From: Rugalucina vietnamica
Taxonomy: Eukaryota > Mollusca > Bivalvia > Lucinida > Lucinidae
Assembly: GCA_964017185.1 (NCBI GenBank)
Contig: OZ024876.1
Location: forward strand, 12,835,726 to 12,899,725
Reading direction: 5' to 3'
Length of the DNA stretch: 64,000 nucleotides
The notes under the pieces were generated by a model that saw only the letters and a program-made list of their open reading frames with translations, was not told the origin of the DNA and searched no databases. Below are positions 2,964-53,800 of this stretch, piece by piece (the stretch's first letter is position 1; each line of letters begins with the position of its first letter). Position numbers and translations under genes: made by a program.

Positions 2964-3225
2964 CTTTTTCTTTTTTTTTTTTTTTGATTCAGTTTAACGT
3001 CCCTTTCAAGATTATTTCAGCTCATATGAGACGGGCCAATCAGTAGGTGGGGCGAAAACGGGAGAACCCCGAGAAAAACCACCTGACACACCCGCAAGCA
3101 GAACTTGGCTTGTCTCACATGTGGCCAGAGCGGAGCGCGAACCCACACCAGCGGTGAGATGATCGAATGGTTAAGTGCGGTATTGAAATATCAGCGCTCT
3201 TAACCACTCGGCCACGGGGGCCGCC
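2935..3225 (-). mobile_element. tRNA-headed SINE (SINE-1) with 8-bp target duplication
   Basis: On the minus strand: a GGCGGCCCCCGTGGCCGAGT head resembling a tRNA-Ser/Leu A box, GGTTCGCGCTCCG in the B-box position, then the body GTGAGACAAGCC...GCGGGTGTGTC, ...CGTTTTCGCCCC, and a tail GAGCTGAAATAATCTTGAAA...GGACGTTAAACTGAATC followed by poly-A (poly-T on +). The insertion is flanked by AACTTAAT at 2927-2934 and 3226-3233, a perfect 8-bp target-site duplication inside the LINE-A copy. Confidence 0.85.
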
Positions 3226-13302: not shown

Positions 13303-13537
13303 GAGCCGTGACGTGAGTAAACCGGTCTTCGGGGTTTCCGACCAGGTCAGACACAAACCGGTCTGTGCAGTCTCAGAAAATGGTTAGAAGCTTGAAATTT
13401 CGGATTTAGGAAGAAGAGAAATTGTACTATCCGAGTGGCGAAAACAAAGGCGCTGATCAGCTTCGCAGTTACTGCGAAGCTGATCTGCGCCTTTGTTTTC
13501 GCATAGGCTAAATTCCGGTTTTCTCACGATGCGGCTC
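13303..13537 (+). repeat. MITE-1 family copy, near full length
   Basis: Begins GAGCCGTGACGTGAGTAAAC and ends GGTTTTCTCACGATGCGGCTC. The core AAACAAAGGCGCTGATCAGC...GCTGATCTGCGCCTTTGTTT is an almost perfect 30-bp-arm hairpin. Confidence 0.85.
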
Positions 13538-13564
13538 AATGTTAACAGTCCGGGATAAATCACT

Positions 13565-17625: not shown

Positions 17626-17870
17626 CGGCCCCCGTGGCCGAGCGGTTAAGAGCGCTGTCTCTTAATCATTCGATCATCTCACCGCTGTGTCTGGTGTAGG
17701 TTCGAGCCCCGCACTGGCCACATGTGAGACAAGCCGTTCTGCTTGCAGATGCGCCAGTGTTCTCCCGTTTTCGTCCCACCTACTGATTGACCCGTCTCAT
17801 ATGAGCTGAAATAACCTTGAAAAGGACGTAAAACTTCAAATAAAAGAAAAAAAGAAAGAAAGAAAGAAAT
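17626..17870 (+). mobile_element. SINE-1, full length, with A and B boxes
   Basis: Head GGCCCCCGTGGCCGAGCGGT then TAAGAGCGCTG (A-box-like) and GGTTCGAGCCCC (B box), body GTGAGACAAGCCGTTCTGCT, tail CATATGAGCTGAAATAACC and AAAAGGACGTAAAACTTC ending in an (AAAG)n tract. The tRNA-like head is a SINE promoter, so I do not call a functional tRNA gene. Confidence 0.85.
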
Positions 17871-17924: not shown

Positions 17925-18285
17925 GTGACGCTTTCCGTTGGGTGGTCGGATGGGAATATGGGCCCCGCCAACTGGGGCCTAGGAGCAATTGATGGAGTGA
18001 TTGTGCCCCCAGGCAAAGCTTCTAATCTCCTGAACGACCATCTGATTACTGGTTTACCGCTAATGTCTGGTTCTGCCCAGGAAAAGTGGTTTAGTCAAAC
18101 GCATCCATACATATAAGCCTTATTGGCTTTGTTGGGTGTTTATATTTATGAAGCATATTTTGAGTGTCATGTCATCCTAATATTGGGTAAATGTCTCATA
18201 AAAGGGAGTTGTCGTCCCGACATGGCCATTGCTGTTGACTGGGACGTAAAGCATCACTTTAAACAAACAAACGAACAAAGCTTTC
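17925..18285 (+). mobile_element. SINE-2 family copy
   Basis: Runs from GGTCGGATGGGAATATGGGCC through CAGGAAAAGTGGTTTAGTCA and GTCGTCCCGACATGGCC to a tail TTGACTGGGACGTAAAGCAT followed by (AAAC)n. Homologous to the minus-strand segments at 20075-20345 and 31225-31540. The tail resembles that of SINE-1 in position but differs in sequence. Confidence 0.65.
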
Positions 18286-20074: not shown

Positions 20075-20345
20075 CATGTACTTTTTGTTGGCCACTGGGG
20101 AGCGGGGTTGCGTTTTATGGTCATGTGACGCTGCCTCCATTTTATTGGACTTTTACCCAAAATTTGAATGCCATGACATCCAAAATGTGCTTTAAATATA
20201 CATGTAACCACCAAAGTAAACCACTAAGGTTTATATGTATGGCTGGTTGACTTGAAACCACTTTTCCTGGGCAGGCTTAGACCTGCGCTGATCTGCGGCG
20301 TACGAGCTTTGCCTTGCACCTATTTCGTTATGGCCCATATTCCCA
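20075..20345 (-). mobile_element. SINE-2 family copy (minus)
   Basis: In minus orientation it matches 17925-18285 and 31225-31540: GGTCATGTGACGC, GGACTTTTACCCAAAATTTG, ATGCCATGACATCC, GTATGGCTGGTTGACTTG, CCACTTTTCCTGGGCAGGC, and ends GGCCCATATTCCCACCGA. Confidence 0.65.
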
Positions 20346-20349
20346 CCGA

Positions 20350-20410
20350 TCGCCCTTCTTTCTTTCTTTCTTTCTTTCCTTCTTTCTTTCTTTCTTTCCT
20401 TCTTTCTTTC
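20350..20410. repeat. (TTTC)n microsatellite
   Basis: TTCTTTCTTTC repeats with a few CCTTC interruptions. Confidence 0.9.
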
Positions 20411-20454
20411 AGTCTAGATATTCATTGATTTATTTATTTATACTAAAACGCGCT

Positions 20455-20610
20455 GGAAAGGTCGGTGGGAGGGATATTGGCCGCCGCAAATCGGGGCCTT
20501 AAGAAATAAATGGGTAAAACTAAAAAGTCTTATTTAAGTGGAGGGGGCGTCCCCCGACATGACCATAGTTGTTGACTGGGAAGTAAAGCATCAATTCATA
20601 AAAAAGCAGG
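20455..20610 (+). mobile_element. SINE-2 short copy (plus), inverted to its neighbour
   Basis: GGTCGGTGGGAGGGATATTG, GGGGCCTTAAGAAATAAATG, CGTCCCCCGACATGACC and TTGACTGGGAAGTAAAGCAT. It lacks the middle of the element. Confidence 0.6.
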
Positions 20611-21243: not shown

Positions 21244-21475
21244 AGGCGGCCCCCGTGGCCGAGCGGTTAAGAGCGCTGTTTCTTAATCACTCGATCGCTG
21301 TGTCTGGTGTGGGTTCGAGCCCCGCTCTGGCCACATGTGAGACAAGCCAAGTTCTGCTTGCGGGTGTGTCAGGTGTTTTTTCTCGGGGTTCTTCCGTTTT
21401 CGCCCCACCTACTAATTGGCCCGTCTCGTATGAGCTGAAATAATCTTGAAAGGGACGTAAAACTGAATTAAAAAA
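21244..21475 (+). mobile_element. SINE-1 copy
   Basis: GGCGGCCCCCGTGGCCGAGC head, GGTTCGAGCCCCG B box, GCGGGTGTGTCAGGTG body and tail GAGCTGAAATAATCTTGAAA ... CGTAAAACTG then poly-A. Confidence 0.85.
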
Positions 21476-21569
21476 AAATACATGTAAAAGGCCTCTTCAC
21501 ACATAATCGTGAATCTCTCGACGTAGGCTTGCGTTTAATTACGAAAAATAGTTTTTGATTGTTAGATTT

Positions 21570-26690: not shown

Positions 26691-28392
26691 GTATGGTTCT
26701 AGGGAAGAAGCTGGTGATAACAAGGTACAAAATTTTAACAAAGTAGCAATAAGTGAGTCTAACTCAGTTATCTCACCATTGCCCGGTGAGTAATGACACA
26801 TTGCTGGGGGATTAAACTGGTTTTGCAGGACCCTTAACTAACCTACAGCTTCTGCAGTGGATCACAACATTGAGTTAGCTGTACTGTCCTCACAGTGAAT
26901 CTCACTGGCATGCGAATTTCTCGCGACTGTTTCGCGAATTTTGTCGCGGACTTTCGCACGACATTCGTGCGAGTGTCGCGCGAGTGTCGTGAGAATTTTC
27001 TTGTGTCGCGAACTAGTCGTGAACTGGTCGCGAAGTTTTTCAACATGTTGAAAAATTTTATGCGAATTTTTTCTCCAAAATATTTCGCAAGACTGTCGCG
27101 CGACCGTCGTGCGACGGTCGCGCGACGTTCGTGCGAGTGTCGCGAACTTGTCGCCGCGAAATTTTGGCGAATTTACAATGCGAAATTTTTGCGACACTCG
27201 TACGAATGTCGCGCGAGTGTCGCACGACGGTCGCGCGACAGTCTTGCGAAAACCTCGCGACTATCTGGCGAGAAAATAAAACTAAGCGACATTCGTACGA
27301 ATGACGCGCGACACTCGCACGAATGTCGCGCGACTGTCGTACGAATTTGAATGAAAATAAGTTACATTCGCTGGAAAGTCGTGAGACACTCTCACGAATG
27401 TCGCGCGACTGTTGTGCGACAGTCGCGCGACTATCGCGCGACAGTCGCGCGATATATTTTCAAAATTAGACCGAAATTCGCGAATTTGTCGCATAAATGT
27501 CTATTCAATGAGACTGCAACGTGAAAGTTGTGTTTATATCGTTTATCTTTGTCGCGAAATAGTCGCGAACTATTCGCGAACTAGTCTCCAGTTGTCGCAT
27601 TCCAGTGAGATAGGGGCTTAAATAGTCAAAATCTCTAAATAGACAACCAAATAGATTATGATAAACACCAAAATGAATGAAAAAGAGGACACATATACAA
27701 TATGCTGCCCGGCAGTTGAAGATCCCTGGAAAACCAATCAACGTCACTGAAAATCCGGAGCAAAACACCAACTGAACCCCGGTGGACCAAGCAACAGACA
27801 AGAAGGATCGGTCCCAGCCAGCTTAAAGCAATATAGTCATCCATCACAGAGTCTGACGCCCGACCCATTGGTGTGCAATTAAAGAAAGAGGCATGTAGTA
27901 AAACTGTGGGTCGGTGTGCAATTAAAGAAAGAGGCATATTGTAAACCTGTGATTATGTTTAAAATTAAGCATGCAGACTGTCGATCATATTTCAATTATA
28001 TCCTATACTTTTGAAACATAAAATATGTATTTTAACTGATGAGAAAAATCATTCATTCCGGAAAGTTTTTAAATTCGTAAACCAAGTCACCATAAACTCT
28101 GGTTCTGAAAGGCATTCACGCAAAAACGTCTTTAACACAACATTCAATTTCAAGTGAAATATTTATTTCGCGCATTGAATAAAATATAAAAGTAGATCCT
28201 TTGGAAGCGTTGAACACTTTCAAAGGGAGATCGTATGGGACATATTGCACAATTTCGGGTAATGAAGCCTGTAACATCATAGTATGTTAATATCCTATGC
28301 ACTTGGAGTTTACGTACAACAAACCATTATAACTCTTTTTATTCAAGAGCGTAGCGGAAACCATATAGCTGGACTGGTAGAAAAACTAATGA

Positions 28393-28427
<35 letters not shown>

Positions 28428-31400
28428 CACACTTACGTCTGTGTAACTTTAATTCATTTCAGGATGGTTACAAAGCTTTCGAGAAGAAAATTTGCGTTAA
28501 AGATTTCCCTGAAGCGGACAAGCCTGGGAGTGGAGTGGCTTGTAAAACAGCGAAACTACTCAACAAAATAACAGAGTAAGTGTAGGGTGGAAACTACACC
28601 TAGAGGATCTTATACGAGTGGTCATGTCGTATGATATTTATTAACTGCGCCTTCGCAAAAAAATAAATAAATTCACATGAAATAGCCACAATTGTAACAT
28701 AAAAAATAAAAAAAGAATAAAAGCGAAACCTGCGTCGCTCTTATGGTCGAACGTGTTTAAAATGTTCTGTTCTAATCTGCACTTCTGTTCAAAGGTAAAA
28801 AAATAAATCTTTCGTCAACCGGAACCGGAATTGTTATTTTTGACGTCCTCGTGACGTTGCAACACGCGCTGCTGCAATATACTAATTGATCAATTAACTT
28901 TCCATTATAGGTTTACGTGGCTGTCACGTTTCGACACGCGCTGCATTGTACTAACTGATAATCTAACTTTCCATAATGGTAATGGTCGGCTATGGTCACC
29001 AGGGTGAGGAAGCTGTCATATATGTAGCTTATTTTAAAAATATCTCCGCAATGGGAGTAGAGCGTCGCGACAAAGGTAGTGCCTTATTTCATATTAGGGC
29101 TATGTAAAACTTTAAGACTACTGCAAGGTACACCGCCCATGTACATTAAGTTTAAAGAACATGAAACGTCAATCACAAAGTAAAACTGGGGATTGATAGT
29201 GTATTCCAATTTTTTGCTGTTTTAGATAATTGTGTGTATACTTTTACGTAATAATGATACACGTTTACTCAATTATCCATAATAATTGCACCCTAAAAGT
29301 TAACATTTGGATTCATTCAATCTCCAAATGGCACAGACTGCATCAAATCGATCTAATGAAAACAAACTTTTTTTAATTCAGTCTTACGTCCCTTTCAAGA
29401 TTATTTCAGCTCATATTAGAGGAGACGGTGGGTAGGGAATTTTTTCGTTTCGCACAACACCCTCCACATACTAGGTTTGATACTATGGGTGGCTTCTTTG
29501 ATCAATATAAAGAGCTTCTAGGCACGTTGTCGCCCTGTGATATGGTGCATTTGTCCTCCAGAAGCCGTTACGTATTTTACCCATTCAAACCAGAAATGCG
29601 CTCTAAGTTTGTAAAAAACACTCTGAATCTCTAATCTAAATTCCAAACCTAAATGTATCAATATCATCTGATGAAAGAATGTTACGGGCACATATATTGA
29701 TATATTTAATCATTTTCATGCATCGATGGTGTTACGTATGTTACATTTTCAAAACAGCCCGTGTAAATGTTAATTACAGAACAGTAAGCTATTTTAATAT
29801 ACTTCTCTTTACGAATTTCACTTTTAATACACTACGGGTGGCTTCGTTTATCAATATAAAGATTTTCTAAGCACGTTGTCGCCCAATGGTATGGTGCATT
29901 TGCCCTCCAGAAGCCGTTACGCACGTCGTATGTTACCCGTTCACAACAGAAATATACTCTAAGTTTGAAAAAATGCACTATGAATCTCTAAAATAAATTC
30001 CAAACCTAAATATATTAATGTAATCTGATGAAAGAATGTTACTGGCACATGTGTTGATACTTTTAATTACATATATGCATCGATGGTGTTACGTATGTTA
30101 CATTTTCAAAACAGACTGTTCAGAGATTAATTACAGAACAGTAAGCTATTTTAATATACTTGTCTTTGCACATTTATACTTTAGATACACTTGTCTAAAA
30201 GACACGTATTCTTATTCTTTTACAAACCTGAAAAGCTAATCATCATGTCATTCCTTAGTCGAAAGTTATTGATATAGTCCACAGTAACTCACTTCAGATT
30301 GTGAAAGAATAAAGTGTTTAAAGTCAACTATGTACAGACAAGTTTAAAGAAAAGAAGAAAATATATACAATCATCTTGTTGTAGATCAATAACATATATG
30401 CCTTCTTGAAGTTGAATGCTCACTGCTTTGCCAGAAATGTGTACTTTTGATTGGTAAATATAACGTATGTAACACATAATAATTAGATATCAAAAATCAG
30501 TTTTAATGATTTTAATGCCGATTAAATGCTCATCGCTGTATGTAATTATGATTTAGCACTAATTTAGAAATCATATAAGATATAGCAAATATTCAAGAGT
30601 GTAATCCGGTTGTCAGTGAACTGAAAGCGCGCACACCCAAACCACAAAATCCCAAAGCATGTTTTACACCATTATTAGTATCCAGTGTTATGAAATGACA
30701 TTATCAACACCGTCGGTCACTATTTCTTAAGTTACCTTTCACAAAGCTTGCCAATATTAGTAAGCAAATATCAATATGCGGGTGACGGGCGATTTAATGG
30801 TAACGTATGTAACACATTTCATTTTTCACTTAAAATTTTAGGTGTTAAAACCTAAGGAAAACAAATAGTAATAAGATATAATAATCGTCACCTTAAGATT
30901 GTTTTCCGATTTCCGGATATTGAAATGACTCGCTGGCCATACAAAAGCACAACTCTGCGCATGCTAGTTCATTTTGTCTGGGTTCGGGGCACATGCGAGA
31001 CAAGCCAAGTTCTGCTTGCGCGTGTGCCAGGTGTTTTTGTTTTTTCTCTCGGGGTTCTCCCGTTTTTGCCCCACCTACCGGTTGGCCCGTCTCATGTGAG
31101 CTGAAATAATATTGAAAGGGACGTTAAACGGAACAAAAATTGTTCAGTCCATGGTCATGAGCACTGCTTCAATATAAGTACCATTGATGTTCCAGACATA
31201 GCCTGATGCGGTTGTTTTGATTTTGAGTTGATGCTTAACAGCCTAGTCAACAGCTATTGTCATATTGAGACGTTGACTCCATTTAATGGGACTTTTTCCC
31301 GAAAATCGGATGCCATGACATCCAAACAATGCTTTAAATACAACCACCCAAGTAAGCCACTACGGCTTATACGTATGGATGGTTTGATTTTAGATCTTCC

Positions 31401-34400
31401 TGGTCAGGCTCAAACCTGAGCGGTTAACCAGTGATAAGATGGTCAGTAAGTAGCGTATAAGCTATGCCTGGAGTCAAAAGAAACACATCTATTTCTTAAG
31501 GACCCGATGAACGGGGCCCATATTCCTACCCGACCAAACTTCTGAGGGATTCTGCTTAGGCTGATACGTTTGAGCGTTTCTGCTAAGGCTGAAAACATGT
31601 TTTTGAAGTTTTCACGTTATAAATGTGTCATCAAACGATCATGCTGTGGTGGTACATTTTCATTTGTGTAGCGCTAATGGCAACAGAACAAGTGACGGAC
31701 AGAAGCATCGTGGTTGTTATGAAAATTCTCGTATCTGTGTCTTCATTGTCTAAAATGCAGTTATGTCATCCCTGGCAAGAAAGCATTTTCGTGTAAAAAC
31801 GCTTACACGTTGTTTGCATATCCTGTTCTATGTTCGGATTTCACACCGAGGGCCCTCAAGAAATTCACATTTTGTGTTATTACTGCTTTACATTGCATTT
31901 TGCCACTCCCGGGGAACTGGTGTCGCCGGGCTAGATAATGTCCTTTCTCGTTCATCCGATCTGATGGATTTACTCTACAGGTTATATCAAACACTACATC
32001 AAATCAATAGTTTCGAAAGGCGCACACAAGCTGTAAGGAATACCACATATATTATCAAATAAATGGGTCCAGGAGTTTGAGGATAATATCTGCATCTAGT
32101 CGGATGCAACTGTCAGTGTGATATTTGCGAAGCCTTTGTCTTCCTAAGTCATTAAGTTCGCACATGTGAAAGATTCGTCGTGGATCGTGAATCTTGTTCA
32201 AGGACACAACATGGCACCTCGCAATCAGGAGCGGACGCTTTAACGATGGGTCACCAACGCATCATATATACCTTACAGTGCCCTATATGAAAATGGTGTT
32301 ACATACGTTACCATGAGCATACTGACAAGTCACCAGTGTGTCAACATATTCCAAACACCTTACTGTGTTCTATGCGAAAACCTTTGCAGATAATTATGTG
32401 AGACCTCTTTCATGTGAGCCGCAGCGCGCGAAAACCACTCTTCCGACAATTTTCCTTCTACAGAGTCAAAGAATTTAGACGCTTGAAATTTCGGATTTAA
32501 GAAGAAGTTTGAATTATCTGTGTAGAGTAAACAAGTGTTTTCATATAGGAATAATCTGGTTTTCGCATGAAGCGGCTCACTATATATACATTTATAATCA
32601 CCAAAATGAAATCTACCCATGTTTGAACATTAAGGTATTACATACGTTACCATGAGCATACTTGCAAGTCACAGGGTGTGTATTTTAGCACACTAAACAT
32701 GTATTTATCATAGGGTGTGTAAACTAGAACTAAATAATTTACAGAAACATATAACAGTTATTCATTTTGATATTTTTGTTGAAACGCCTACTTTTCAAAT
32801 GTTACAGCATACGGCGGTACCCTTAGGAAATGTTAAATTATCTAAATAAAATAGATTAAATATTTAATATAAATATATGATTTTGTGTAATAGCCAAGTT
32901 GAACTATTGGTCAATAAGAAAGAAGCTATCGTTTTTGGAATATAAAGAAAGAAATGCCAAAAACAAAAACGTTTTTAAACCCAAACCCCTATTTTCACGC
33001 CATAGATATAGAAGTAACGTTTGTAACACCGTATAATGCCTAATTTCAACTTTTAAAGATCATAAAGCATGTCCGTTAAATTGTTCTAGTACGTGATATA
33101 ATTAGTGTTGTTGCATGATTAAAGTGGGTGGAACATAGAAGGTTTCGCTATTTTGTTGGTACAAATATATTTTGAACATGTAACTTATGTAACGAGCTAC
33201 AGAAATATTGTGCACCACTTGCCGGGGCGACAACGTGCCTAGAACTCATCTAGGATAACCAATGGACCAATTGCATACTGCAAACAAAGTATGTGGAGGG
33301 TGTTGTGCGATTTCGTTAAATACGGTAGATACAGAATCTAGCGTCTCGCCTATATGAGACGGGCCAATCAGTTAATGGGCGAAAACGGGAGAACCACCTG
33401 GCACACCCGCAAGCAGAACTTGGCTTGTCTCACGTGGCCAGTGCGGACAACATAGTCTGCATGTTGTCTCAGAACCAATGTTAGATTACGGGAACTGTCA
33501 CATGAAGTTACTAGTTTACGAACACATGGCATTGTCTTTTGTGTAAAACCCCCATTTCTGATTTGCACAGAGACTCAGAAGAAGGGGTTTATGACATTTT
33601 GACCATTTATTTTGTTTGAAGACATTAAACGTCGACATCTTTTGCTACAATATGAAGGAAATGCTTATAACATGAAACGGTCATAGTTGAGATGCAATTG
33701 TTGAAATACATCTTATATCTTCTGTTGTAGCTCGTTCTTGGAGAGGAATGGAGATTTGTTTACAGAGGTGTCAGAGTACCGCCTCCACGCTCTCATGTCG
33801 GTATTACAAGCTGGTCTGAACTCTACCCACGTGACCTTGCTTTGGTCTTTCACGAATGGTTGGGGTGGTTTGGAGAGCTATCTAAGGGTAAAAACGATAG
33901 TTTGACGTCAAACAACACAAATCGGAAATCACTAAACTGATGAGCCAGTGACTGCACAGCTGTTCAGCGCCATTTTTTTCACTACACGGATAGTACAACT
34001 CCTCTTCTACTTAAATCCGAAATTTCAAGCTTCTAGCTCTTTTCTGTGACTGTACAGGTCGGTTTGTGTCGAACCTGGTCGGAAACCACATTGTTGGTTT
34101 TCCCACGAGGCGGCTCATATATTAGCCTGTTGTGTTCTGTGTGGGACATGGGCAGACAGTAACGCCCCCAGATAAAATGCCGCAAAACGCGGTGTCTCAT
34201 CTAGATGTATCACCCATTTGCGTGGAGAAATTTCATCGAAACATGGAATAAACAAACTAAAATCACCACTAACAGCCCTACATGAAAGTGACCCAAATGA
34301 TAACGATGAGCAAGTATATTTAAAAAAAAATTTAATCGAAGACAGTTGGACAGACCGGGGTCCAACTGATGTTTTTCTTTTGCTCCGGAGTGAGTAAGTT

Positions 34401-37400: not shown

Positions 37401-40400
37401 AAGCGCATTGTGCGCTTATTAGAACGATTACGGTAATCATAAGTTCTGGACATATCTCGTAGTTATTTCAGTATCACCCGAAATTGCAAGCCGCATCACA
37501 TCATTCTGTGGCAGATCGATTCGGTTTGTTTCATTTTTCAATGAATCCCCTAAATAAGAATATCTACGAATATGACGCCGCGTCGATACTCCTGATTTTC
37601 TCTAGGTTAGACCAGTATGAGCCAGATGTAGCACATAGAGCATTCCTGGACCTTTATCAGTATTACCATACTCAGATCCCTGGTCTAACAGACAAGCTGG
37701 CCAATGAAATTTATTTCCTGACTAGAAACATGGTGGAGCAATTCCAGGACGAAAATCCTTACCTGGTATGTTGTATTTCTTCCTTTACAGTACGTCGCGA
37801 AGTTCTGCTCTACAAATAAACAGCGCTGTCAATTGTTGCATTACCCTCTGTTCTGCCTACAAATATTACGAGAAAAGATCACGATACCTATGTTCTATTA
37901 TATATGCAAACACCTTCAAAAGCATGAATATGAAAGATATTAAGCATTGATAATTCTTCTTCGAAAGTCACTCAATTAAATTTATATGTTGTAAATAAGA
38001 ACACTGTATTGTTAATATTGTTTATAGATGTAAATACAGAAAGTATTATTTACCCAAAATACATACGAAATCGAATTTCTTTTCACTTCGCTTGCAAAAA
38101 AAAAGATTTTTAATATTTTCGCTCAATACCTACATTGTGGGTACACGTTAGAACCGCATCGCCGAGGCGGTTCTAACGAGTACCCACAATATAGGTTTTG
38201 GATCAAAACTAAGAAAATTAGGTATACCTGCAAACCACACTTTTTCTATATAAAACTGGGTATACATTACACGGGCATGTTTTCCTGATGTTTCGGTCAT
38301 TACAGGACTTCAAAGATGTGGCGATATTGAAGCATCATCTTAAGACTATGCAAGAGATGGTTTCTAGTAAGCGGTATAAGACGGACGGTCCCATTGATGA
38401 TGCCGTAAAAGCTATGATTGAAAACCTCATGAAAGCTATCATGTAAGTAATATAATTGATCACTCGCAGTCTGTATATGGGCCTATGATCTTTTTAGTGG
38501 GAGGGAAACGGTTCCTTATATTTGAGCCGCCTCATGGGAAAACAAACATGGGTAACCGCGAAGCTGATCAACGCCTTTGTTTTCGCTACTCGGATAGTGC
38601 AATTCCTCTTCTACTTAAATCCGAAATTTCAAGCTTCTAGCTCTTTTCTGTTCTTGTACAGGCCGGTTTGTGTCGGACCTGTTCGGAAACCACATTGTTG
38701 GTTTTCCCACGAGGCGGCTCATTTATGGCTCATTTATGGTAGGATTGTGAGGCTGTAGAACTTTAAAACAACCCCGTATCATATCAAAAAGCATACCTTA
38801 TCACCTAATTTGTAAAACCTACACCCTATCCAGTTTTACTCGAAGGAACAGTTTGCTAAATTATGTACAAATTTGGGGAGGTCCGTCGCAAATTCCATTA
38901 AGTCATTTTAATCATATTCAGAGAAAATGACTTGGTGTCAGATTTGTTCGATCCTACTATGGAGATGATCATAGAAGTGTATCGTCATGGCAACGCTAGG
39001 GCAGAGGCGGGGCTTGTCATCAATAAGATAAGGACATATTTGATCAGGGAAATCGGAGAGAGAAAGGTAATAGAACTTTTTCTGAAGTAAGATTTGGCAT
39101 ATTAAGCATCGAGGTGTGGCCTTTTCAGAGCAGCAAGCAATGACCAAGAACAGACAAATGCTGCTGACGCTTTTGACTAATTATATGAAAATAACAGCTG
39201 ATGGCATCATGGCGAGATTATGTTTAAAAAGAACACCGTGGTTTATTTGATGAGAATTATTATTGTTGTGTTAATACTGTGATTGTCATATACTGTGATA
39301 GTCATTTAGACAATCACAGTATTAACACAACAATAATAATCCATTCAAGGAATGGGGACTCTGTCATGCCGTTTCCTACCATTGCTTTCATTTTACCTAT
39401 ATTTTGTATTTATTCTTAATTTTACTATCATATTTTATATGAAAATACCCTCGTGATTTATTAATAAACAATACGATTATGTTTCCCGCTTTAACATATT
39501 TTTTTTTGTATCGCAGATTCCAATCGAGCCACTGTTTAAAAGTTGTCTGCGCATGGTACAAGCAATTACTGCCAAAGGGACGCTGTCGGATGATTCCCGA
39601 CTTATGGCCGAAGATGTTATCGACATATTTATCAAACAAGTTGAACATCCGTAAGGAATTCTTATTTGAATACTTGATTACATTAACTTAAGAAGATTCC
39701 GGAAGGTTCACGATAAAAACGGTAACCTATACCAAACAGCAGATGGAAGTAGAGTCTCCCGTAAATATTAGCTTAATGCTTACTATAAATCAAATTAATC
39801 CCTGTCACACAGGACAGCTTTCTCACTGCACTCTCACGGCGTTCAAAAAACGCCGAGGTGAACGCGGTGCGACAGCAAACAACGCCGTAGCAGCTCGATG
39901 GTATTGCCATCATATATGACGCCGAGGCTCGGTGTTCGGTGTTCTAATTAGAGCGCTATGCGAACGCCGCATTGTCTCCGTGGAAACGCTGTAAGATCTC
40001 CATCAACGCAACAAGAGCTCCGCGGGCGCGCAATGAAGTCGTAGTGCAAACGCCTTGGTAGTCCCATGGCGTTTGCATGGAGATGATGCTGCATCCATCG
40101 CGATCTCACTGCGTCTATAGTGTGCTTATACGGTGTGTCTTCGGCGCTTATACTGCGTGTAATTTAGTTTGTTGTGCTCCTGATGCGTTTGCAAGGCGCT
40201 GGCACAGCGTTCGTTGTGAAGCTTTTGCCGCGTTCCTGTTGGCGCTGCCACGGCGTTCATTGCGTTCCCAAGAAGCTTTCACTACTCTAAATGGCGTTTT
40301 GAAACACTAACATATTTCGAAAAAAGATATATATTTTCAAATATGACGAAACCAATTAAAACAGTGTAAAATGATCTGCACATATTCTTTGATAAGTATT

Positions 40401-43400: not shown

Positions 43401-44793
43401 AGGTCCGACACAAACCGGGATGTACAGTCACATAAGATGGCTAGAGGCTGGAAATTTTGGATTTAGAAAGTTGACGAATTCTACTATTTGTGTAGCGAAA
43501 ACAAAGGCGCTGATCAGCTCCGCAGTTACTGCGAAGCTGATCTGCGCCTTTGTTTTCGCCTATGCAGATTGTTGGTTTTTCCATGCGGTGGCTCATATTT
43601 GTATTTTTCTACACCATTGTATATGTTTGTTAATTATTGTGCCCATCACTAACATTGGATATCCTTTAATCGTTCATTCAGATCGTCAGACGACGTGAAA
43701 CAAATACTGGGATTTCTCAGATGCATTGTATTGTCTGGCAGCCGGGATCTTCTCATCACCATTAAAGGGATCCTGGCAGCTCTAAAGACACGAGGGGTTC
43801 TGGATTGGAAGGTAGAGCATAATTATAAAAACTAGCAAGTTTAGATTGTAACAAAACTCGACGGTAAACAAATTCAGCTGTGAGTTGTGAATTCGCAGAA
43901 ACTCCTGAATTTAATTGTGAATTCAGCTCTGAGTTGTGAACGGTAACGGCGAAGCTGATCAGCATATGGATAGTACCCTTCCATTTTCTTAAATCCGAAA
44001 TACCCAGCCACTAGCCATCTTCTGTTACTTTACAGCCTAATTTGTGTCGGACCTGTTCGGCAACCGCATAGTTGGTTTTCTAATGAGACGGCTTAAATAT
44101 TGTTATCCATCGGCTTGTACTTCATTTCTTGTTTCTGATCTTGCACTGTGATCTTGTTTCTTGTATTGTCAGTGCTCACGTTTTATTGTTAGAAATATGA
44201 AAGCGAAGCTAGAGGGATACTCGAGGCCGTGGGTGAAGTCACAGTACAGAGTATTCGTGATGATGGCGACGTACCACGTACACAAATGGAGTATGGCGAC
44301 TTCGTTGAAGATTACCTTAACATTCTCAGGTAAAATGATACGAGCCGTCTCGTGATAAATCAACAATGTGGTTTCCGAAAACGTCCGACACAAACCGGGC
44401 TGTGCAGTAACAGAAACATGCTTGAAGCTTTTTTGGATTTAAGAATAAGAGTAAGTGTATTATCCGTGTAGCGAAAACAAAGGCGCTGATAAGCTTCGCG
44501 GTTACTGCGAAGTTGATCTGCGTCTTTGTTTTCGCCTATGCAAATTGTTGGTTTTCTCACGAGGCGGCTCGTATGTCAACGCATGTTAGTAGCTTTAGAT
44601 TTGTTAAATATCAATGGTATCTGCATGAGTTCATTGAACTAGGGCAAATGTGATTGAATATTATTTTCCTATTTCATTAAATGTCGCCTAATCCATATTT
44701 TAATTAGTAAGTTTCTCCTGCAGAGTTAATGTAAATAAGTTCATGAAACTAACCAAACGTTTGAATCATGTTGCTTTATTTTCAGTGTGTGTG

Positions 44794-47800: not shown

Positions 47801-50800
47801 TGATTCAATGACTAGTTAGAGATTCACCACGAGGACCGAAGAACTAACTATATGTTATGAACCACTGCAGAGGCTGAGGCGGGTGAGGTTATGGCCATTT
47901 AAAATCGATTTAAGCCCGCCAGTTATTTTATATTACTGATCGTTCCAAGGCGATACTTCTGTGGTGGTTCTTTTTGTTTTTTGTCGTGTGTTATTTTTTT
48001 TTTTTTTGCTTTTGGTGTCTTATGTATGTTTTCATATTTTGGTTAAGTTTATGTAACTGAGTGGCCAACTATTGGGAAAATGGCTGCTCATTCGGCTTAC
48101 GATATGTTTTCATGGTACAAGTACCTGATTGTTAATTTAGTTCTTTCGCACCTTGGTTTTTGGAGTGGGAATCTCTTTCAGATTGTGCCTTTTCCTGATC
48201 TTTGCCTACTTGTACGTTCCTAAAGAGGAAATGCAAAGATCTGAAATGATTTCGCGGAACTACAAAAAAGACTCACAAATGACAATGTCTTGAGATCTCA
48301 TTAATGTTTCAAAACAGCGCCTCATGAATATGTTACTGTCATCCATATACAAATGATCACAAATAAGTTTAATACAAATAATTTTACAATGTTTATAGCA
48401 TAGTTCGATTTCAATTTAAACTTGCTGCAACTGGGAGCGTCAAAACTTAGATTAATAGGAAAATCATGTCTCCTATTCAATCCTGGACCTATGATAATCA
48501 AAGTTACAGGCTGTCGCAATTAAACTGTTTAAAATTAATAAATATTGTTGACACAAAGATATATGCGCATGGGCATACACGTGTTTATACTTTAAGTAAG
48601 TATTGTGTTTTTACATTTTGCGTCTTATTCCAGTGATTTAGTTCAATTCTACAATGTGATGTTTACAGGGATGGGGCGACTCTTACTGAGGAAGATAACA
48701 AGCTGTTTGTGTCAATCTTCCTGACCGTTAGTGAAGGGGGAAAGTCTGTCACTAAACACTGGTACCAACTACAGCACCCAGATAGATCAAACGTCAAGTT
48801 TAGGATTTGGAACGGAGCTTTGAGGACGTTTATAGAACTGGTAAGAGACATAGAACAGCCAGATAGATCAAACGTCAAGTGTAGGATTTGGGACGGAGCT
48901 TTGGGAAGGTTTGTGGAACTGGTAAGAGACATACAAACATGTAGTCCAAGGGCAACGATCGCTCACCTGAAAGTCAGGAAGTACAGTCATTGGACAAAAG
49001 AGAAGTAGTTAGGGTTTTACATTATACGAGCATATGGGCATTGTGGCCATCTTGGTCAATATGTGACCTGGGTTTTTACATACATATTGGTTCCACCTTC
49101 CTATAGATGCTTCATACAAACTGCGAAGGTGATCATCTCCTTTGTTTTCGCTAGTAGAACAGTACAATTCCCCTACTTTCTAAATCCAAAATTTCCAGTC
49201 TCTGGTCATCTTCTGTGTGTTGTACAGCTTGGTTTGTGTCAAGATACAAGAAATTTTATTTAGCGTCGGTTTTGAGTAACAAGTAAAATTAGTTCGTAGA
49301 ACTATTTTTCGAACGTGTTCGAAAATCACATTGTTGGTTTCCTCATGATGCGGCTCATTTGATATTTGTAGCACCAGAAATCATCGACGTTGTCCTGCCT
49401 CGCCCCAGTGATGCCCAACATAATGAGATGGACACACATAGCCGTTAACGAGAAACACGAAAACATGATCGACTGCATGCTGCGTATATTGACAGCAATA
49501 GGGCGCAATCCTCCATCAGAGTTCAGCTGCTATTTGTCCGAGTTATTGGACTTACTCCTTAAATCAGACAAGTGCCAGGATTTATACAGTAAGCATGTTG
49601 GTCCGCTCAGTTTTGACAGACTCATTTTCTGGATAAAGACAATGAAATTCTTTACTAAAAAAACAATGTGGTTTATAGAAATCACACACTTGACACGAAG
49701 TCTATCATTTCATTTGAACTCCGATAGGGGTTCTTTCTCGATGATTTTTCTAAAACTCCACATGCTCAACTGTTCGCTTGATACAGGTGTGGTCGCAGAT
49801 AAAAAGTGAAATGTTAGGATACAACGTTACAAAAGACAATAATGAATAAAAGATAGTTTGAGACTTTTGCGTGCAAAATGATTCGCCTGACAGAGTTTTA
49901 ATCATTTCAGGCTTGATAAATGAATTATACCGACACAATCCTGATGCAGTGCACCAGAAATTGAACGATATCTTTAAAGCGCTTAACAAGTCTACTGGGA
50001 AAGGCGAGACAACTATTCCCTGGGTTCTCCACTCTGTCGCGGAGCACCATCCAGAGGTTCTGTGATTCATAAGCCACCTCGTGGAAAAACCAACAATGTG
50101 GTTTCCGAACATGTCTGACTCAAACCGAGCTGTACAAGCACAGAAGATGGCTGGAGGCTGGAAATTTTGGATTTAAGAAGAAGAGGGTTTGTTCTATCCG
50201 AGTAGCGAAAACAAAGGCGCTGATCACTTGTTTTCGCATATGCAGATTGTTGGTTTTCTCACGAGGTGGCTCAATATTATTATTATAATTCTTACTTTTT
50301 GTTGCTTTGAAGAAAAAATATCAAATTAAAAATTTCATGAACATATTTCTACTGAATCGAATTTTTATGTCCGCTTTGTTTGAAACTCATCTCGTACGTG
50401 TATATCGATTACAGTTTGCCAGTTTAAGTGCCTGATTGTTAGTTTGGTTTTTTCCCACCTCGGTTTTTGGAGTGGGAATCTCTTTCTGATTGCACCTTTT
50501 CCTGATCTTTGCCTACCTGTACCTTTTTAAAACGATTGCTTAATACAGAACATATTGTATTACCAATTGTATACACACGTACACTGATACTTAAGCATGT
50601 TTCTCAGTGTTTATTTATTGCCTTGGCTTTTAGCTCACCTGAGCCGCATACCCCGTTGTCCGTCGTCGTTGTCGTCATCGTCCACAATGTTCAAACATCT
50701 TCCCTGAAACCACTTGGCTAATCAAATCCAAATTTCATGTTGAGCAACCTTGGGAAGGGGAACATAAAGTGTGTAAAGATGGTCCAGGTCACATTACCAA

Positions 50801-53800
50801 GCAAGCCGCAGGGGCTATAAATAACAAAAACCTTTAAAACCGATGAACCAATTTCAACCAGACTTGGTATGTAGCATCGGGGGCTCTGACCAACCATAGT
50901 TTGTATAAATCATAACCGTGGATTTACCTTGACAGATTTTACGGCAAGATCATTTGGTCACATGGATTTTTCAATGTAAAAAGTGGAAACATTGGCTTTT
51001 TCAAGACGTTTTGTAGCTTTTGACCGGAAAGTTGGCAGATACAACTTTTTGAGTCAATAAAGTTATGTGAGTATTCAAGGTCAAGATCATTTCTTAACAT
51101 TGGCCATTAAATTTAAGATTTAATTTGCTCAAAAACAACTCAATCAATCAAAGCCAAATTATATGTGTAGTATCATTTGGAAGGTAGATCTAAATACTGT
51201 ATAAATGGTCAAGGTCACATGATCATGATGGCCGCCATGCCCATAAATGGTATAAACCTAAATAAAAACTTCTCTTGAACGAGTAAATCGATTTCAGTGA
51301 AACTTGGTATATAGCATTAGTAACTCTGGCCCATCATAGTTTGTATAAATAATGACCTTGGGTTGACCTTGACCAATTTTAAGATAAGGTCAAATATGGT
51401 CACATGGATTTTTCAATGGAAAGACGTGGAACCATCGGATTTTCCAGCTTGTGTAATATTTTGTAGCTTGTGACCTGAAAGTAGGTACATACAGACAACA
51501 TATGAGTTAGTGAAGTTATCTGAGTGTTTAAGGTCAGTGTCATTTCTTGGCCTTTGCCAATGGTCATTTACAATTAAAATCAAAACGTTCTTCTCCTCTG
51601 AAACCACAGAGCCAACCAAAGCCAAACTTCAAAGAAGGTGGAATACCAAGATGGCGGCCATGCCAAACCTTTAGCTCCTTTTCTCCAGAACCAGTGGACT
51701 GATTTCAATGAAAGTTAGTATGAAGCATCTGGGACTCAGGGTAAAGTTTATTTTTTTTACCTTGTCCAACATGACCTTAGCTAAAGGTCATTTATCAAAG
51801 ACCAAATCTTAGGTGAGCGTTCTCAGGACCATTGGTTCTCTGGTTATGATGGCTTTTTTTCGCATCAGGTATTTAACAAACGTCATATTGGGACAATATT
51901 TGAGAGGGCAAAGAAAGGCAATTCGCAAGAACAATCAGTTATGCTGATGGTCATAAAGAATATATCAGATAAACACCCAGCTATGCTGAATGACTCCTTT
52001 CCATTTCTTTGTGATGCGACTATATTTAAAGAAGACACTGTGCCAACAAGAAGTGTTATTATTGCTGCAGTTGCAATGGAAAACAAAGTGAGTTTAATTT
52101 AGATTACAACGTTTTGACATAGTGCTTGCATTTGTTAGGTTTGCCTCATAGTTTCACAACAATATTCTAAAGCAATCATTTCTTTATTTCGTTTATACAG
52201 TGTACACCATACAGATTCATTGTACCCCGTAGACACAGTTATTGAAACAGTACCAGTTACTGAGTGCATTTTTGACAAACATTTGCGAGATAGTGGTAAA
52301 AATTTTGCATGTTTTCTTGTAATCAGATTTCTTCTGTGTCAAATTTGTCAGTTGATCGCTTTGATACGTTTGATTTGTTCTCGCGTCATCTTATGGTTGA
52401 CAAACCGCAAAAAGGGTCCGTGGGGGCATGCCGAAGACATTCGTTTTGGATGATACTGTTGCAATAATTGATTCAGTCTATAGGGTAGTGCATACTATTT
52501 CGCCGTGCGGTTTAGCGAGTTACAATTTTCTGAAAAGAGTCTCTTGGGATTTCACAAAACCCTGTAGACAGCTGGCTCAATTGGGCTAAAGTTAAAGTTC
52601 CCGTATGTTTGACTTCAATATTTAAACTATTGAAATCACAAAAAAAATTAATATGTTCTGAAATGGAACATGGAAGCGTTCCCTTATTCCAATATGCATT
52701 TAGATGCGTTGTAACTACCCGTATCATTATACTTTGTAGGCTTTAGGACAGAAGGCAGTGGATTACTTGATGAAATTTGCCTTGTTCAGCGGCCCACCAA
52801 TTAGTACATGTGCATTATCTGCGGTATGTACATTGACAGACGCCCATCGTGACTGTGTCTTACCGTACAAGGCCAAACTGGAAAAATTGGAGAAATCGTC
52901 AAAAAATCCGCAAGTCAAACAACTAATTCACTCAATGCTACAAATGCTCAAAGGGGACACGTAAGTACGTATACATGAGGATAACATGTCCCTGTAATAT
53001 TTACCCCCTGAAACCCCACATTTATAAATGAGAAAATGGGGTTTACAGGGGTATAAATGTTTTCTTATTTTTGATCCAAACATCGTGGGTACACGTTAGA
53101 ACCGTTAACGAGACCCCACAATCTATGATTTGAGCAAACATAAGAAATATATCAAAATTTATCTTCAGTTTTTTGTTGTTACATCCCTAAAACACCTCTG
53201 TATATTGCTGAATTTCGTAATGATATCTGAGCTGACATCCTCTTGGTGTTCGAATGTTATCACATAAAAAAGGAACACTCGGCACTGAAGTTTTTGTCGT
53301 TTTGTATTTGAGCCACCACATGGGAAATCCATCAATCTGCATATGCGAAAACAAAGACGCAGATCAGCTTTGCGTAACCGCGAAGCTGATCAGCGCCTTT
53401 GTTTTCGCTACTCGGATAGTACAATTCCTCTTCTACTTAAATCCGAAATTTCAAGCTTCTAGCTCTTTTCTGTGCTTGTACAGGCCGGTTTGTGTCGGAC
53501 CTGTTCGGAAACCACATAGTTGGTTTTCCCACGAGGTGGCTCACTTGTTGATAACTGATGTGATAAACTCCTGCTAGCGGTTGAATTGTGTCTACAAAAA
53601 TTACCTGGAAAATATTTCCATGAAAAATATGCCCCCTTAAACCCCACCTTTTATAGAGTGAAAATGGGGTATTAGACAGGGTTATAACTTTTTCTTGATA
53701 ACAAACATTATCACTGTTTTGAGGAGTCAACTCTTCACACAAGACTGAGTGTCAATACTAGAGTCATAAATCTAGAATACCCGTGCTGTGATTAAATGTT

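Follow-up and report, generated by a model that had tools for sequence, protein, structure and literature searches.

Gene-less transposons of the bivalve Rugalucina vietnamica carry a sparse, mirrored array of GTTAC pairs that recurs in dissimilar families

Canonical PIF/Harbinger transposons make a 3-bp target duplication of the TWA type, Helitron-type elements make none, and non-autonomous DNA transposons often retain short ends alone. CACTA elements are reported to carry subterminal units of 10–20 bp, packed tightly over several hundred bases (PMC8978399); the AcademX lineage of Academ makes target duplications of 3 or 4 bp, Zator makes 3-bp ones, and IS3EU/GingerRoot combines TA..TA termini with usually 6-bp duplications (PMC10045372); Academ elements are present in bivalves (PMC10294476); the Nuwa families of PIF/Harbinger possess a DNA-binding protein of the Myb/SANT type, encoded separately (PMC12730594); and oysters hold non-autonomous Helentrons with satellite-like arrays (PMC7492417). 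Here, we describe a 3.9-kb element inserted into a short interspersed nuclear element (SINE) in a 64,000-nucleotide stretch of the R. vietnamica genome (C8:12835726-12899725; hereafter the window), for which the whole assembly (1.09 Gb, 47 contigs) was surveyed. The element is mobile, with many copies that have both ends in common, and each of its arms carries a series of paired GTTAC half-sites whose mirrored spacing recurs in families of otherwise dissimilar sequence.

The element occupies positions 29417-33352 of the window, and these limits are exact. It is seated within a minus-strand SINE broken at CAGCTCA^TAT^GAGACGG, of which the left half ends ..CAGCTCATAT and the right half opens TATGAGACGG.., and three further SINEs of the window remain intact across the insertion point and represent empty sites (2975-3140, plus strand; 21320-21480 and 17700-17855, both minus strand). 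The original prediction, made from the letters of the window alone, had proposed these same coordinates and a SINE cleanly split with TAT on both flanks. The uninterrupted SINEs bear out both the split and its position, none of them places the boundary elsewhere, other copies with the same ends exist, and TAT is one instance of a duplication that is regular among those copies (see below). Duplications of 2 bp (TA, AT) and 4 bp (ATAT) were rejected, as the ends are symmetric only with 3 bp and other copies concur. The interrupted SINE and the element are as follows:

29368..29416, minus strand: host SINE, left part, ending in the left target duplication TAT (29414-29416)
29417..33352, no strand assigned: whole element, a family 1 non-autonomous DNA transposon, delimited by empty sites and target duplication
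33353..33447, minus strand: host SINE, right part, opening with the right target duplication TAT (33353-33355)

Searches with the left 384 bp and the right 339 bp returned 669 and 627 first-look candidates, respectively, which are not confirmed copies; the best 40 of the 669 were 97–100% identical over the full length, and the best 40 of the 627 were 98–100% identical. Scored places from the left-end, right-end, and divergent-end searches fell into 88 clusters or loci on 16 contigs (8-kb clustering), and copies are thus numerous in the genome. Twenty further copies were fetched, 18 of which have the right end whole, giving 19 two-ended copies together with that of the window; outside this set stand L129, whose right-end match is 15 bases short (flanks TAC and GTA), and L144, which has no right-end match. 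An exact 3-bp target duplication of A/T-rich, variable sequence (e.g., TAC, TTA, CAA, CTG, CGA, and AAG) was found in 19/19 two-ended copies, as were the termini TAG..CTA (19/19). Twelve of the 19 copies are 4.1–4.45 kb long and the remainder lie within 3.9–6.8 kb, with a mean pairwise mismatch of 3.9% (171 pairs); the window copy is missing ~350 bp at 31700/31701 relative to most fetched copies.

No long open reading frame is shared by the 19 copies: stop-to-stop frames reach at most 171 codons, except for a 224-codon frame in L148, and a frame of 113–116 codons at offset 223 recurs in 8/19. The six frames of the window element had no Pfam match at E values up to 1, Rfam gave no match at the gathering threshold, and viral contigs held no match to the 22-bp inverted-repeat core; a loose motif-pair pattern picked out at least 120 stretches of the viral contigs, which we judged to be chance and did not use. 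The full-length relative with a transposase that the prediction had suggested seeking was not found in the searches with these ends. Common ends, a target duplication, empty sites, many copies, and no visible transposase gene are the general marks of a non-autonomous DNA transposon, and the element is very likely a gene-less transposon moved in trans.

Compared with CACTA/EnSpm, the element shows the 3-bp target duplication and the short repeated motifs in both subterminal regions, direct and inverted, but its termini are TAG..CTA rather than CACTA or CA..TG, and its ~9 motifs stand at steps of ~165–387 bp and reach ~1.1–1.4 kb. Given these termini, membership in CACTA, which the original prediction had cited as a parallel for the motif array, is unsupported. 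AcademX and Zator fit by duplication length alone, and the genes that would mark them (an Academ transposase and an XPG-type nuclease for AcademX, a Zator/ISAzo13-type transposase for Zator) were not seen in the elements. The TA..TA termini of IS3EU/GingerRoot are present, but the duplication is 3 bp in 19/19 copies, the single 6-bp match (L141) lying inside TATTAT repeats. PIF/Harbinger agrees in duplication length, but TAA or TTA flanks just 3/19 copies, and no protein of this superfamily, including the Nuwa type, was found for the element. Unlike Helitrons, the element has a target duplication. It resembles the oyster Helentrons (PMC7492417) in being non-autonomous and having tandem units. 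BIV160-type satellites are a literature lead by description (PMC5139131), and the excerpted text of PMC11071193 holds nothing relevant to the element. Searching a collection of papers for the motif and end strings gave no relevant match, TAGAGGAGACGG alone occurring, in one paper unrelated by title; the families may be listed in Repbase or Dfam under another name. Because a transposase was not found, superfamily membership is left unclaimed.

The two ends of the element agree at 9 of their terminal 11 bases (TAGAGGAGACG / TAGGCGAGACG). Behind them, the subterminal inverted repeats that had been put at ~120 bp are present (29450-29549 and 33211-33310; 75% identity over 102 columns), and the stretches from end to first motif of both arms align well above shuffled sequence (z 10.3). 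Within family 1, the core of the right inverted repeat stands out for its constancy (1/492 cells changed vs 1587/73,389 overall); the constancy of the left end in family 1 is biased, as that end was chosen by the search itself. Tandem units at 29482-30167 show a period of 357 bp (84% matches, 1.9 copies), so the proposed pair exists, with a length of ~357 bp and not 346 bp. The repeated motif is GTTAC-N4-GTTAC, which reads better as two half-sites 9 bp apart in direct order than as the near-palindrome first described. Six exact copies, three with one mismatch, and one interrupted copy lie within the element, in agreement with the at least eight copies in both orientations initially reported; across the 64-kb window, 6/6 exact sites and 3/6 one-mismatch sites are inside it. 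The ends, tandem units, and motifs are as follows:

29417..29566, plus strand: left terminus TAGAGGAGACGG.. with its subterminal inverted repeat, as far as the first motif
29482..30190, plus strand: two ~357-bp tandem units with M1 and M2 in each; none of the three divergent copies that were read shows them
29567..29580, plus strand: M1a, GTTACGTATTTTAC in the window copy and GTTACGTATGTTAC in the remaining 18 of the 19 copies aligned
29731..29744, plus strand: M2a
29916..29936, plus strand: M1b, in the second tandem unit, interrupted and 7 bp longer than the other sites
30088..30101, plus strand: M2b
30460..30473, minus strand: M3, of opposite orientation, with one mismatch in the window copy
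30800..30813, minus strand: M4
32298..32311, plus strand: M4', right arm
32637..32650, plus strand: M3', with one mismatch in the window copy
33014..33027, minus strand: M2'
33180..33193, minus strand: M1'
33194..33352, minus strand: right terminus (reverse complement TAGGCGAGACGC..) with its subterminal inverted repeat

At nine sites, the commonest form across the 19 copies keeps both half-sites, with the central 4 bp differing among sites. Exact motifs number 146 per 87,722 bases of the 19 elements vs 1 per 94,162 bases in the flanks of 18 of them, and their orientation is mirrored between the arms. Spacing, which we counted only for pairs with both sites exact and, for left M2–M3, from the last tandem unit, is mirrored as well: the distance from end to first site is 150 bp on the left (149 in L131) and 159 bp on the right (153 in L131), M1–M2 is 164 bp in 17/17 left arms and 164–166 bp in 15/16 right arms (172 in L145), and M2–M3 is 376–387 bp in 9 copies on the left and 375–382 bp in 13/14 on the right (351 in L138). 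Left M3–M4 measures 338 bp in 8 insertion-free copies. The window copy has a left M2–M3 of 372 bp and a right M3–M4 of 339 bp, its interval with a nested miniature inverted-repeat transposable element (MITE) being shortened; as the MITE lies within it, this right interval was originally ~170 bp, and an apparent mirror symmetry of M3–M4 (340/339) was dropped. The 335–380 bp spacing of the original prediction is not general: the outermost pair of each arm is spaced by 164–166 bp, and the right 339-bp interval is swollen by the MITE. Between these sites, the M2–M3 and M3–M4 spacers show no similarity when arm is compared with arm.

Using a divergent copy's end as query led to places without the second tandem unit, and three such copies were read. 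In all three, 150 bp separate the left end from the first motif, and the second motif follows 164–165 bp further in; one begins TAA. ATA stands on both sides of L158:204-4336 (4133 bp) and of an 18.1-kb copy, which was considered as an autonomous element and rejected, since it is best read as the backbone of the other copies, lengthened by nested insertions. Of six frames searched, one gave a weak Mos1-type helix-turn-helix match, below the curated Pfam cut-off, a Penelope-like reading of other pieces was our own and had no Pfam match, and no autonomous partner was found among these copies. Two local arrangements were also seen. In L158 (2872-3124), four M4' motifs, one of them mismatched, follow each other at 73–88-bp steps in a divergent family 1 copy. 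In L159 (869-909), the third site consists of five GTTAC/GTAAC half-sites at 9-bp steps with an orientation flip after the third; this chain is perhaps an ancestral compound site, which could explain either orientation in later families.

The motif and a similar spacing recur in a second family, represented by a 4656-bp element beside the family 1 copy of L158 (L158:6826 to L160:2481). Its ends are TAGACG (left) and TAGGCT (right), with an inverted block of its own (80% over 101 bp), and it has eight sites with no more than one mismatch, besides which the surrounding 6.8-kb stretch holds none. On the left, they lie 150, 315, 686, and 1080 bp from the end (spacings 165, 371, and 394), and on the right, 141 bp from the end and then 182, 370, and 199 bp further in. 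Only the motifs match family 1, in-register identity being 28.0% vs 26.8% ± 1.8 at other registers. A genome search with family 2 gave 744 candidates, the best 40 of which were 86–100% identical; 37 of these 40 start at query base 5–8, 20 of them at base 7, the TAGACG end, and this end is therefore placed independently of the motif. When four sites were placed at random in 1200 bp and compared with the family 1 arm of the window copy (M3–M4 excluded), one of 400,000 trials came as close as the left arm of family 2 and 112 as close as the right arm; with the two spacings alone, the numbers were 26 (left) and 1034 (right). Near this copy, a 143-codon frame (L160 2569-2997) has a weak match to calcineurin-like phosphoesterases (Pfam E 0.00082, below the curated cut-off) and is possibly a host-gene exon outside the family 2 element.

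Genome-wide, opposed motifs 150–180 bp apart were found at 390 places vs 2 for a reversed-pattern control, and like-oriented motifs 356–386 bp apart at 1105 places vs 12. Among the first 50 opposed pairs listed, 49 are spaced by 164–169 bp and one by 177 bp. The 19 of these 50 for which sequence was obtained belong to one third family. Its sites chain further inward: 21 of the 37 listed opposed pairs (C1, below 84.4 Mb) reach a third motif at 359–374 bp, all with first spacings of 164–169 bp, and 10 of the 21 belong to the sequenced family 3 places. Two 66-base pieces of family 3 resembled the M1–M2 spacers of families 1 and 2 in none of 20 comparisons, the best of which was equalled by 1 of 200 shuffles. 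Elsewhere on C1, positions 34143806-34148522 hold like-oriented mirrored pairs at 378 and at 371 + 357 bp, perhaps a fourth group or a family 1 relative, and positions 44800805-44822564 hold two like-oriented motif chains 9.3 kb apart with a further pair 12 kb on, which could be a long element and an autonomous candidate.

Because the intervals outlast the sequence around them and turn up again in families with no recognizable sequence in common, we favor, with moderate confidence, the reading that the array consists of predicted binding sites for a shared transposase or accessory protein and that its spacing is constrained. A transposase-binding array had been raised in the original prediction, and the motif and spacing common to dissimilar families strengthen that idea, while the binding itself stays a prediction from sequence. 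Mechanistically, a transposase encoded elsewhere in the genome would recognize TAG..CTA and the subterminal inverted repeats, excise the element, and insert it with a 3-bp target duplication (cut-and-paste). The transposase or a DNA-binding partner may also bind the paired GTTAC half-sites, whose 9-bp offset is about one helical turn; direct half-sites at this distance point to a dimer or to a single protein whose two DNA-binding domains are alike. With sites ~150 bp from the end, ~165 bp on, and ~360–385 bp further, mirror-wise in each arm, the set spacing would let bound proteins join the long arms, and intervals of ~165 and ~370 bp suggest that one and two nucleosomes, respectively, may lie between the sites. 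The same or closely related proteins probably serve at least two further families that have the motif and similar spacing.

These gene-less elements of more than 4 kb retain a sparse motif layout in both arms, and dissimilar families retain a similar one. If the spacing is functional, the transposition complex would organize ~0.7–1.1 kb per arm, possibly across nucleosomes; this would depart from short-end models and could explain how the elements spread at full length with passengers (two SINEs and a MITE). More tentatively, and with considerable doubt, the families may form a new superfamily or lineage with a long-range ruler, in which half-site pairs at ~150, 315, and 690 bp per end stay constant amid sequence turnover, so that dissimilar 4–5-kb gene-less families share one protein system and cannot shrink to MITE size. 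Searching by pattern for motif plus spacing is also a practical route to further members and to the autonomous partner.

Several observations weigh against a constrained, protein-bound array. Neither a transposase nor a partner protein was found, and we infer the protein–DNA contact. Motifs changed in 43/2779 cells, barely under the family 1 average of 1587/73,389, and some spacers are alike, one of two M1–M2 comparisons between arms showing similarity (z 3.4) and the right M2–M3 spacer resembling the right M3–M4 spacer (z 4.5). Inner spacings vary (338, ~370 with the MITE, 394, and 199), and motif orientation differs among families. For family 2, four of the eight sites have one mismatch, right M1–M2 is 182 bp, the copy read at both ends lacks a matching 3-bp duplication (TTA vs TAG), and the placement test used the window M2–M3 of 372 bp, so that with 376–387 bp the left-arm coincidence is somewhat weaker. 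Family 3 is known from interior sites, its ends lying outside the sequence reached; its comparison rests on the two 66-base pieces, and sequence is at hand for 10 of its 21 chained pairs. The pair searches were confined to 150–180 and 356–386 bp, set around expectation, and what they count is places, of which many are homologous copies rather than independent events.

The strongest alternative is that the families are deep relatives, descended from one ancestor, in which the sites were kept for the protein and the spacing was merely inherited. The TAG termini, often TAGRC, of families 1 and 2 and their similar mirrored layout and length (4133 bp for divergent family 1, 4656 bp for family 2) are consistent with such descent. 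However, the sequence between sites is dissimilar across families and mostly also between arms, and the outer intervals agree within ~1–15 bases in most arms, where neutral insertions and deletions should have shifted them, as other intervals did shift (199, 394, and 338). We regard deep common ancestry with retained spacing as unlikely.

An improbable alternative to binding by a transposition protein is that a host transcription factor or nucleosome-positioning protein binds the motif, aiding expression, replication, or tolerance of the element. Some motif copies resemble what we take to be bZIP-type sites (TTAYGTAA), and intervals of ~165 and ~370 bp could accommodate one and two nucleosomes, respectively, but the sites are at a set distance from the termini, in mirrored arms, in elements without a long shared open reading frame, and exact sites are scarce in the flanks (1 in 94,162 bases). 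That the arms are remnants of a tandem satellite with a CENP-B-like box, trapped between inverted repeats, is very improbable: the 357-bp tandem unit of the window element, the M4' units at 73–88-bp steps in a divergent copy, the tandem units of ~196 and ~381 bp in family 2, and two weakly similar right-arm spacers (z 4.5) speak for it, but most other spacer pairs are without similarity, the sites are mirrored about the element center, and none of the three divergent copies that were read has the 357-bp unit. As for the CENP-B-like boxes mentioned in the original prediction, GTTAC-N4-GTTAC bears no evident resemblance to the human box.

Besides the motif array, the element carries three nested passengers:

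30984..31139, plus strand: SINE1, of the host SINE's family; in 20/20 fetched copies and 0/3 divergent copies
31215..31536, minus strand: SINE2-like repeat; complete in 18/20 fetched copies (L143 keeps part of it, L142 none) and found in 0/3 divergent copies
32414..32580, no strand assigned: MITE with 24-bp inverted ends, between M4' and M3'; in 20/20 fetched copies, the 3 divergent copies matching at 72–75% coverage

Because the divergent copies are without both SINEs yet match 72–75% of the MITE, the MITE probably arrived earliest and the SINEs next, and the composite was then amplified. Relatives of these passengers occur elsewhere in the window. Matches to the MITE family, with ends ~GAGCCGC..GCGGCTC, lie at 13384-13538, 33973-34122, 38515-38721, 43442-43595, 50154-50277, and 53399-53547. 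The second SINE-like repeat (~320 bp) is found at 17943-18263, 20124-20604, and 31215-31536, beside the first SINE family, and a piece of it also matches inside family 2. Finally, positions 27091-27586 of the window hold tandem runs with repeat lengths of 11 and 22 bp, in which GTCGCGCGAC-like units abound.

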